NCBI RefSeq assembly: GCF_025699255.1
Contig: NZ_JAILWA010000003.1
Coordinates: 124,001-188,000 of the forward strand
Source: Nitrosopumilus sp.
GTDB taxonomy: Archaea > Thermoproteota > Nitrososphaeria > Nitrososphaerales > Nitrosopumilaceae
Length of the DNA stretch: 64,000 nt
Direction of reading: 5' to 3'
The notes beneath the pieces are model-generated. The model was not told the origin of the DNA. It did not search any database and worked only from the letters and a program-made list of their open reading frames with translations. The number at the start of each line of letters is the position of its first letter. Position 1 is the stretch's first letter. Positions 11,198-14,252 of this stretch are shown in pieces. The position numbers and the translations under genes were made by a program.

Positions 11198-11290
11198 CGG
11201 GCTTGGAGGGCTTCGATCCCTCGACCTGTAACTTAGGAGGCTACTGCGCTATCCATGTTGCGCGTCAAATTGACTCTGCGCTACAAGCCC
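11198..11290 (-). tRNA. tRNA-Arg (anticodon CCT) with an 18-nt insertion in the D-loop
   Basis: Read on the minus strand: acceptor GGGCTTG pairs with CAAGCCC, with discriminator G. The anticodon stem GTAGC/GTTAC encloses loop CTCCTAA (anticodon CCT). The T-arm is GAGGG-ATCGAAG-CCCTC. The D-stem GCGC/GCGC encloses 28 nt instead of about 10. Removing 18 nt would restore a normal D-loop with the GG pair (AACATGGATA). The insertion is bounded by a GCGCA direct repeat, so its exact ends (within about 11257-11281) are ambiguous. It may be a non-canonical tRNA intron. CCA is not encoded. Confidence 0.85.
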
Positions 11291-11314
11291 AGCAAAAAAA
11301 ACATTCTTAATTAT

Positions 11315-12025
11315 TTAAGCGTAATCAAGATTATCTTTGATTAGTTTTTGAATTTTTTCCCAATTTTTATTTTCTTTATTATTCCATTTTTCAAAATAAA
11401 TTACATCTTTCAATTCAAGTCTTGGCAACCAGCCTTTAGTTTCAAGATCTGGTTTTTCTGCAAAATCATCTACATACCCTAAGCATAGATATGCAACAGG
11501 AACGACATGTTCAGGCAAATCTAAAGTTTCTTTTAATGTTTCATTAGACAGAATACTTACCCATCCTAAACCTATTCCTTCAGTTCGTGCAGATAACCAT
11601 AAGTTTTGGATTGCACAACAAACACTGTAAAGCCCTGCTTCAGGAATACTAGATCTTCCAATTACAAATGGACCAAATTTTGTAGGATCATATGTTACAC
11701 AAAGATTTACTGGCGATTCTAGAATTCCTTCAAGTTTGAATGAAAGATATTTTGATTTCTTTGGCTCTTCAATTAATTGTGATGAACGATTTTTTTCTTC
11801 CTCGAAACTTTCTTTAATTTTCTTTTTTGTATTGATATCTTTTATTAAAATAAAATTCCATGGTTGAGAAAATCCTACAGATGGTGCATGATGTGCAGCA
11901 TGAAGAATTTTTGATAAAATATCATCTTCTATGGGCCTTGAAGTAAAATGAGAACGTACATCTCTTCTTGAATATATTGCCTTATAGAACCCTCTTTTTT
12001 CTTCATCAGTAAAATTTTCTGTCAT
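11315..12025 (-). CDS. bluB: 5,6-dimethylbenzimidazole synthase (BluB-type nitroreductase fold)
   Basis: BluB cannibalises reduced FMN with O2 to make dimethylbenzimidazole, the lower ligand of cobalamin. The motifs match BluB rather than generic nitroreductases: SRRDVRSHF, AAHHAPSVGFSQPWNF, GLYSVCCAIQNLWLSARTEGIGLGWVS and VAYLCLGYVDDF. I chose the ATG at 12025 (236 aa) because GGAGGT lies 9 nt upstream. An upstream TTG at 12073 in the same frame would add 16 residues but lacks homologous character. Together with cobJ it supports autonomous cobalamin production. It sits between two tRNA genes. Confidence 0.88.
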   Translation of the reverse strand: MTENFTDEEKRGFYKAIYSRRDVRSHFTSRPIEDDILSKILHAAHHAPSVGFSQPWNFILIKDINTKKKIKESFEEEKNRSSQLIEEPKKSKYLSFKLEGILESPVNLCVTYDPTKFGPFVIGRSSIPEAGLYSVCCAIQNLWLSARTEGIGLGWVSILSNETLKETLDLPEHVVPVAYLCLGYVDDFAEKPDLETKGWLPRLELKDVIYFEKWNNKENKNWEKIQKLIKDNLDYA

Positions 12026-12752: not shown

Positions 12753-13250
12753 ATGAGTGCAATCGAACAAGCTATTATTACTTGGATTCATCTTGTTGCT
12801 GCAGCAATTTGGGTTGGTGGTTCTTTGTTCATTGGAATTGTTTTTTCTCCACTTTTGAAAACCATGACAAATTCTATAGAAGAACGAATGCAAATAATGA
12901 TTCGTGTTGGTAGACGCTTTAACAAAATTGCTGTTCCTTCATTGATTATTTTAATGGTAACAGGTTTGTATACTTCACATGTATTACTTAGTAAACCAGA
13001 TCTTTTAGTATCTACAAGCTATGGAACATATCTAATTATAAAAATAATTCTGGTAATTGCATTAATTATTACATATGCAATTCATGTCAGAGTAATTCGT
13101 AAAGATATTGAAGAAAAAATTATGTCTAATCAAATGCCAGAACATGAAATACAAAAACTAAGAAAAAAAATTATCATTCTTGGAGAAATTACAGTAGTTT
13201 TATCAGTATCTATTCTATTTTTTGCATCCTTACTTGATGCTGGTGTTTGA
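12753..13250 (+). CDS. CopD-like four-helix membrane protein
   Basis: A 165-aa integral membrane protein with four hydrophobic helices (about 7-32, 57-77, 90-110 and 138-160). The first carries IHLVAAAIWVGGSLF, matching the first helix of CopD/YcnJ-type copper-resistance or copper-import membrane domains, where this His is conserved. Ammonia oxidation depends heavily on copper, so a role in copper handling is plausible, but only by family resemblance. Start is ATG at 12753. It overlaps the convergent rtcA by 21 nt. Confidence 0.7.
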   Translation: MSAIEQAIITWIHLVAAAIWVGGSLFIGIVFSPLLKTMTNSIEERMQIMIRVGRRFNKIAVPSLIILMVTGLYTSHVLLSKPDLLVSTSYGTYLIIKIILVIALIITYAIHVRVIRKDIEEKIMSNQMPEHEIQKLRKKIIILGEITVVLSVSILFFASLLDAGV

Positions 13251-14252
13251 GATTCCTTCAATTATGATATCAAATCCATAATTAGTTTTTCCAATTCCAT
13301 ATTTGCAACCAGTAATTTTTGATGTTACAAACAAATTTGTCTCTAAATGTTTTGTAATTTCTTTTACCTGAAAAATTGTTTTTCCTGTACCCAAACTTGC
13401 TGGAACTACAAGCATGTCTGCTAAATTATCATCAATTGAATAACTTTGAACAAATCTATCTATATCTAGATCAAATTCTTGTGTTTTTTTATTATAAAGT
13501 CCATCAATTCCTATTATTGAATTTTCATCCACACTAAAAATCAATAATGTTGCTCCTGAATCAATTGCTTCTTCTGATTCTACTTTTACATTGACTATGA
13601 AATTTTTATTTGAAAGTTTTATTTTTATTTCATTAATTTTTTTCTGAATTTCTTTATTTGGTAATTTTGAAAATGAACAAATTAATTCTACTTTTTTTGT
13701 TTTTCTTTTAGAAAATGCTATTGATTTAATTTCTGATTTTGTTGTTTGTAATTTTATTTTCCCTCCTCCTTTAGGATAATAACCTCGTTTACATAGTTCT
13801 AGTGAAAAGTTAATTCCCATTCTGGAATATGCTTCTTTTAGTACATGTTGAGTATAATCAATAGATGGACTCCAAAGTACATCAGTGCCTCCTTTAATTT
13901 CTAAATTAAGATGATTTTGAGAAATAGCCATTACAGGAATTATAACTTGTAAAATTAATGGAATACTTCCTGCAGTTCCAACATCTTCAACTAAATCTAA
14001 ATCTTTGATCTCATCTGGAGTAAATTTTAATTCTGTTGAACCTATTTCTGCACCAATTACTTTTGCATTTGTAATTTTTTGAAGAATTGAAATTGCAGTA
14101 AGATGTTGTGGACGTAAACCTGGAATTTTTCTATTTTTTCTAATGTTTTCTAAATGAATTGGTTTTTTTGTAATGCATGAAAGTGTAATAGCTGAGCGAA
14201 TAATTTGTCCTCCTCCTTCTCCATAAGCACCATTGATTTTTAGAAATTCCAC
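13230..14252 (-). CDS. rtcA: RNA 3'-terminal phosphate cyclase
   Basis: It converts RNA 3'-phosphates to 2',3'-cyclic phosphates using ATP, through an enzyme-AMP intermediate. The 340-aa protein begins INGAYGEGGGQIIRSAITLSC and continues with IRKNRKIPGLRPQHLTAI, both hallmark RtcA segments; LVPASLGTGKT and ITKHLETNL follow near the C-terminus. Start is GTG at 14252. It is divergent from the NMN adenylyltransferase gene. RtcB is not in the window. The family assignment is firm; the physiological substrate is not. Confidence 0.93.
   Translation of the reverse strand: MEFLKINGAYGEGGGQIIRSAITLSCITKKPIHLENIRKNRKIPGLRPQHLTAISILQKITNAKVIGAEIGSTELKFTPDEIKDLDLVEDVGTAGSIPLILQVIIPVMAISQNHLNLEIKGGTDVLWSPSIDYTQHVLKEAYSRMGINFSLELCKRGYYPKGGGKIKLQTTKSEIKSIAFSKRKTKKVELICSFSKLPNKEIQKKINEIKIKLSNKNFIVNVKVESEEAIDSGATLLIFSVDENSIIGIDGLYNKKTQEFDLDIDRFVQSYSIDDNLADMLVVPASLGTGKTIFQVKEITKHLETNLFVTSKITGCKYGIGKTNYGFDIIIEGISNTSIK

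Follow-up and report, generated by a model that had tools for sequence, protein, structure and literature searches.

A probable non-canonical intron at position 15/16 of tRNA-Arg(CCT) in Nitrosopumilus, with a relaxed bulge-helix-bulge splice motif

Introns of archaeal tRNAs are between 11 and 129 nt long, most medians falling at 12-25 nt, and the non-canonical introns of Thermoproteales and other Crenarchaeota include D-arm sites at positions 20/21, 22/23, and 25/26 (PMC4090602). For Thaumarchaeota, the tRNAscan-SE 2.0 survey gives 107 non-canonical introns in the genomes that it searched, with a search model for bulge-helix-bulge (BHB) motifs that is specific to this clade (PMC8450103). Endonucleases of the alpha2-beta2 type have likewise been reported for Thaumarchaeota (PMC4090602). 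In solved endonuclease-RNA complexes, the nucleophile is the 2'-OH of base 2 of the bulge and its target the phosphate of base 3 (PMC12397907), and a crenarchaea-specific loop (CSL) of the enzyme has been linked to the cleavage of relaxed motifs (PMC6379350, PMC12397907).

The gene considered here lies at positions 11198 to 11290 of the window, that is, the whole 64,000-nt stretch of Nitrosopumilus sp. DNA that was analyzed. It is a tRNA-Arg(CCT) gene of 93 nt including the putative intron and, like all features of the window located below, it is on the minus strand. It is a full-length match to the Rfam tRNA model (50.2 bits with Infernal), whereas ARAGORN run with bacterial settings did not report a tRNA-Arg(CCT) at 11290-11198. 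Three arms (acceptor, anticodon, and T) have a regular form, the anticodon CCT (11235 to 11237), which reads AGG, sits in a loop CTCCTAA, the discriminator is G73, and the gene does not encode CCA. The D-loop measures 28 nt versus 10 nt after removal of an 18-nt insert. Sequence, fold, and the Rfam model thus bear out the sequence-only reading of this locus, which had described a tRNA that is regular except for its D-loop. Upstream, a TATA-like A+T-rich element around CTTAAATAATTAAG (11304 to 11320) is a putative promoter, and its CTTAAAT is also found upstream of the gene in relatives. The T-loop (within 11204-11223) reads ATCGAAG rather than TTCRAAT; relatives share this variant, as does tRNA-Arg(TCG) of the source genome (L035), which marks it as a trait of the lineage rather than damage. 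About 2 kb from the tRNA, an ORF at 13230-14252 resembles, by eye, the RNA 3'-terminal phosphate cyclase RtcA, a proximity that is probably a coincidence.

Comparative sequence evidence makes it very probable that the 18 nt, AGTCAATTTGACGCGCAA (11258 to 11275), are a non-canonical pre-tRNA intron at tRNA positions 15/16 that is spliced according to a relaxed BHB motif of the HBh' type. The motif reads GCGC-AGA-GTCA-ATT-TGAC-GCGC-AAC. Helix H would have 4 bp (GCGC:GCGC) between the 5' strand of the D-stem (positions 10-13; 11278 to 11281) and an intronic strand (11260 to 11263) that matches the 3' strand of the D-stem. It is flanked by two 3-nt bulges, AGA (11275 to 11277) at the 5' and AAC (11257 to 11259) at the 3' splice site, and by a hairpin, GTCA-ATT-TGAC (11264 to 11274), with the 4-bp helix h' (GTCA:TGAC). 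The motif scan found no outer helix h (h = 0, with no exon-side pair next to H), so that the strict hBHBh' definition does not apply and the assignment is to the relaxed class only; nor is the site the canonical 37/38, as the insert sits in the D-loop. When this tRNA was scanned strictly for HBh', the motif described was the single match, with a 75-nt mature tRNA as output, and only 0.03% of random 18-nt inserts at the site gave a 4-bp H and a 4-bp h' in register. The hairpin had been listed before as a mere competitor of the D-stem, with no convincing BHB motif placed. The fold is indeed present, but it is better read as the splice motif itself, as the relaxed HBh' form fits it.

In the mechanism that we propose, D-stem bases 10-13 of the precursor would pair with the intronic GCGC instead of with bases 22-25, and the intron hairpin together with helix H would build the HBh' motif. 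Because cleavage in the crystal structures follows the second bulge base (PMC12397907), the predicted cuts are AG/A and AA/C, presumably made by an (alpha-beta)2 endonuclease. RtcB would then ligate G15 to C16, and bases 22-25 (GCGC, 11246 to 11249) would close a normal D-stem around AGCATGGATA. Position 16 corresponds to the last base (C/T) of the 3' bulge. Removal of AGTCAATTTGACGCGCAA leaves this D-loop with G15 facing C48, and the spliced form is predicted as a 75-nt body, G73 counted, with GCGCAGCATGGATAGCGC. G15 and C48 form the standard Levitt pair, and G15 is the archaeosine-bearing position of tRNA. We infer that transcription, cleavage, and ligation take place in the cell.

The source genome encodes what such a mechanism would need. 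Of its two PF01974 (splicing endonuclease subunit) genes, the first specifies a protein closest to crenarchaeal catalytic subunits (Aeropyrum pernix 3p1z_B, E value 1.3e-41), which keeps the catalytic Tyr, His, and Lys and shows K-P-K in alignment with K44-P45-R46 of A. pernix, so that the CSL Lys is conserved. The second matches the Methanocaldococcus jannaschii endonuclease (1a79, 2e-22) and lacks the catalytic His in the alignment. An RtcB ligase gene is also present. Hence, the host has candidate genes for the broad-specificity (alpha-beta)2 or epsilon2 endonuclease and for the RtcB that such introns call for. The genome also has a gene of the TGT family.

The comparison across related genomes that the sequence-only reading had recommended shows both retention and clean absence of the insert. 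Of the 81 genomes of the same genus that yielded the gene, 80 retain the insert (counted from search tables), and the tRNA-Arg(CCT) sequence is identical in eight fetched genomes, the source genome counted; this excludes the sequencing error at the repeat that had been considered. In G024, a metagenome-assembled Nitrosopumilaceae genome, the syntenic locus (L136; 85% DNA identity over 1.7 kb) carries the tRNA without exactly AGTCAATTTGACGCGCAA and with nothing further missing there. That G024 was assembled from a metagenome is a weak point, although intronless genes occur in several members of genus g38 as well. G009 retains an intron, AGTCAACATGACGCGCAA, and splicing its gene by the same rule yields the G024 gene in 75 of 75 bases. 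The junction GCGCAG-YATGG recurs in intronless genes of genus g38 and of families f2, f10, f14, and f15, and intronless genes in other lineages read GCGC-AGYATGGAYA-GCGC/T. Every intronless orthologue has G15, with C48 available as its partner. The intronless relative thereby fixes the insert as AGTCAATTTGACGCGCAA, one base off the repeat-bounded choices. The GCGCA repeat is real, but the ambiguity of the ends once attached to it is not. As sequence-based proofs of intron boundaries go, we consider this one unusually good.

The precise absences extend to L190, L191, L194, L196, L197, L199, L200, and L201, the only cases from genus g38 that were kept as intronless, in addition to G024 (L136/L076). 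Apparent intronless matches to the reverse-strand pattern at L192, L193, and L198 were rejected as inner matches within introns. Taken together, the absences in g38 and G024 indicate that the intron was lost more than once or is unevenly spread. The tRNA-Arg(CCT) genes of family f8 (L086-L088, L090, L091, and L094) also have an insert at this position, 16-29 nt long, which suggests either that the intron is old and has been lost elsewhere or that it was gained in parallel. A tRNA-Arg with anticodon CCG (L078, G020:C73:2288-2382) has an insert of the form GCGC-AGT-hairpin-GCGG-AAC at the same D-loop site, and the tRNA-Arg(CCT) of family f17 (L195, G105:C34) is without the D-loop intron and has an insert just 3' of the anticodon. 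In family f3, the D-loop of a tRNA-Arg(TCT) of G107 (L089, region C21:61161-61218) is enlarged by an insert, several tens of bases long and bounded by a repeat (CTCAGTTTGG), in which no clean BHB motif was found. We regard it as a rather unlikely speculation that an intron placed after G15 ties the folding of the D-arm or the modification of G15 to splicing, and that the precise losses reflect copying back of the spliced tRNA.

Covariation was assessed in 56 sequences comprising 50 distinct introns, which vary in length from 16 to 29 nt and keep the frame of the motif. The 5' bulge is AGA in 54 of them and the 3' bulge is ARY or ANA in all 56. Helix h' shows double-sided changes in its first three pairs (GC/CG/AT in pair 1, TA/CG in pair 2, and CG/TA/GC in pair 3). 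In helix H, pairs 2 to 4 hold in 56/56 sequences, and G022 (L117) has a compensatory change in which C13 of the D-stem is replaced by T and the opposing intronic G by A. The outermost H pair, between G10 and the last intronic H base, is G-A in 28/56 sequences (G-A or G-G in 29/56) and therefore draws no support from covariation. Overall pairing amounts to 92%, versus 85% (maximum, 87%) with permuted partners and 65% after a one-base slide, controls that are indicative only, given that the sequences are related.

These data bear on the possibility that the 18 nt are retained in the mature tRNA as an extended, structured D-loop, the fallback of the sequence-only reading. Conservation throughout the genus would be compatible with retention, as would the finding that a D-stem can still form around the insert at a predicted -29.1 kcal/mol. 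The motif form of the precursor is predicted at -31.0 kcal/mol when the remaining arms are held constant, with pair probabilities of about 0.67 for the motif versus 0.02 for the D-stem form, a thermodynamic preference that is modest. Against retention, D-stem and intron would compete in an unspliced molecule, close relatives have the same tRNA without the insert and with the junction at the predicted splice sites, the length of the insert is free while its bulges and pairing are kept, and a matching endonuclease is encoded. We therefore give retention very little chance. The non-canonical D-loop intron that the sequence-only reading had raised is, by comparison, strongly supported by the motif, the covariation, the exact absence in relatives, and the enzyme genes.

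The direct repeat of GCGCA at the ends of the insert could also be taken as the trace of a recent tandem duplication or an assembly error that has left a pseudogene. This idea can practically be set aside, since several independent genomes share the identical sequence, nearly all same-genus genomes with the gene have the insert, half of the compared sequences read GCGA in place of GCGC, and in G022 the repeat is lost but the pairing retained; in addition, the 42 tRNA matches in the genome include no other tRNA-Arg(CCT). The repeat is rather accounted for by the intron itself, the 3' arm of which must imitate the D-stem strand that it replaces. Finally, a cut one base earlier (A/GA ... A/AC), equivalent to the repeat-bounded 18-nt deletion of the sequence-only reading, would likewise leave a foldable tRNA with a restored D-arm, but it would place A15 in the loop (AACATGGATA) where the intronless relatives have G15 (AGCATGGATA), forgo the Levitt pair, and depart from the crystal-structure rule, and it is extremely unlikely.

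How, then, does the proposed intron at 15/16 compare with known systems? It shares with the Thaumarchaeota introns of the tRNAscan-SE 2.0 survey the phylum, a BHB-type motif, and a site away from 37/38; the excerpted survey text does not name the tRNA-Arg(CCT) 15/16 locus, and this intron family may already be listed in its supplementary tables or in GtRNAdb (PMC8450103). With the non-canonical introns of Crenarchaeota it has in common a short length, a relaxed motif (hBH or HBh'), and an (alpha-beta)2 endonuclease, whereas the phylum is another one and the present host is mesophilic; the positions spelled out for Crenarchaeota, in a list that ends in "etc.", do not include 15/16 (PMC4090602). 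Its 18 nt, once held to be unusually short, are an ordinary length for an archaeal tRNA intron (PMC4090602). A description of this very intron was not found in the literature searched.

The closest parallel in the same genome, outside the window, is a second non-canonical intron in tRNA-Val(CAC) (L034, G000:C9:40263-40357), with the motif TGCG-TAA-GGAAATTTTTTCC-CGCA-AAG. Its H helix of 4 bp, its pair of 3-nt bulges, and its hairpin likewise make it HBh', and cuts after the second bulge base again give a canonical tRNA. It differs in its length of 20 nt and in its 44/45 junction beside the anticodon stem. Introns at the canonical position in the Tyr, Met, Leu, Ser, and Gln tRNAs of this genome gave no clean motif in the same strict HBh' scan and were left out of the evidence. 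The f8 inserts resemble the tRNA-Arg(CCT) intron of the source genome in their GCGC-AGA ... GYGY/GCGA-ANA frame and in their tRNA position, and differ in their range of lengths and in an unrelated hairpin sequence; a common origin is likely but not proven.

Correct boundaries matter for the annotation of ammonia-oxidizing archaea, given that ARAGORN in bacterial mode misses the gene and that mis-splicing by eye is easy. Close relatives carry this tRNA with and without the intron at a single syntenic locus, a natural test case for the prediction of splice sites and for the way in which tRNA introns are lost. In conclusion, the probable tRNA-Arg(CCT) intron belongs to a documented kind, the non-canonical introns of Thaumarchaeota, to which it contributes as new details its site, 15/16, next to the archaeosine position, its conservation throughout the genus, and its clean losses.
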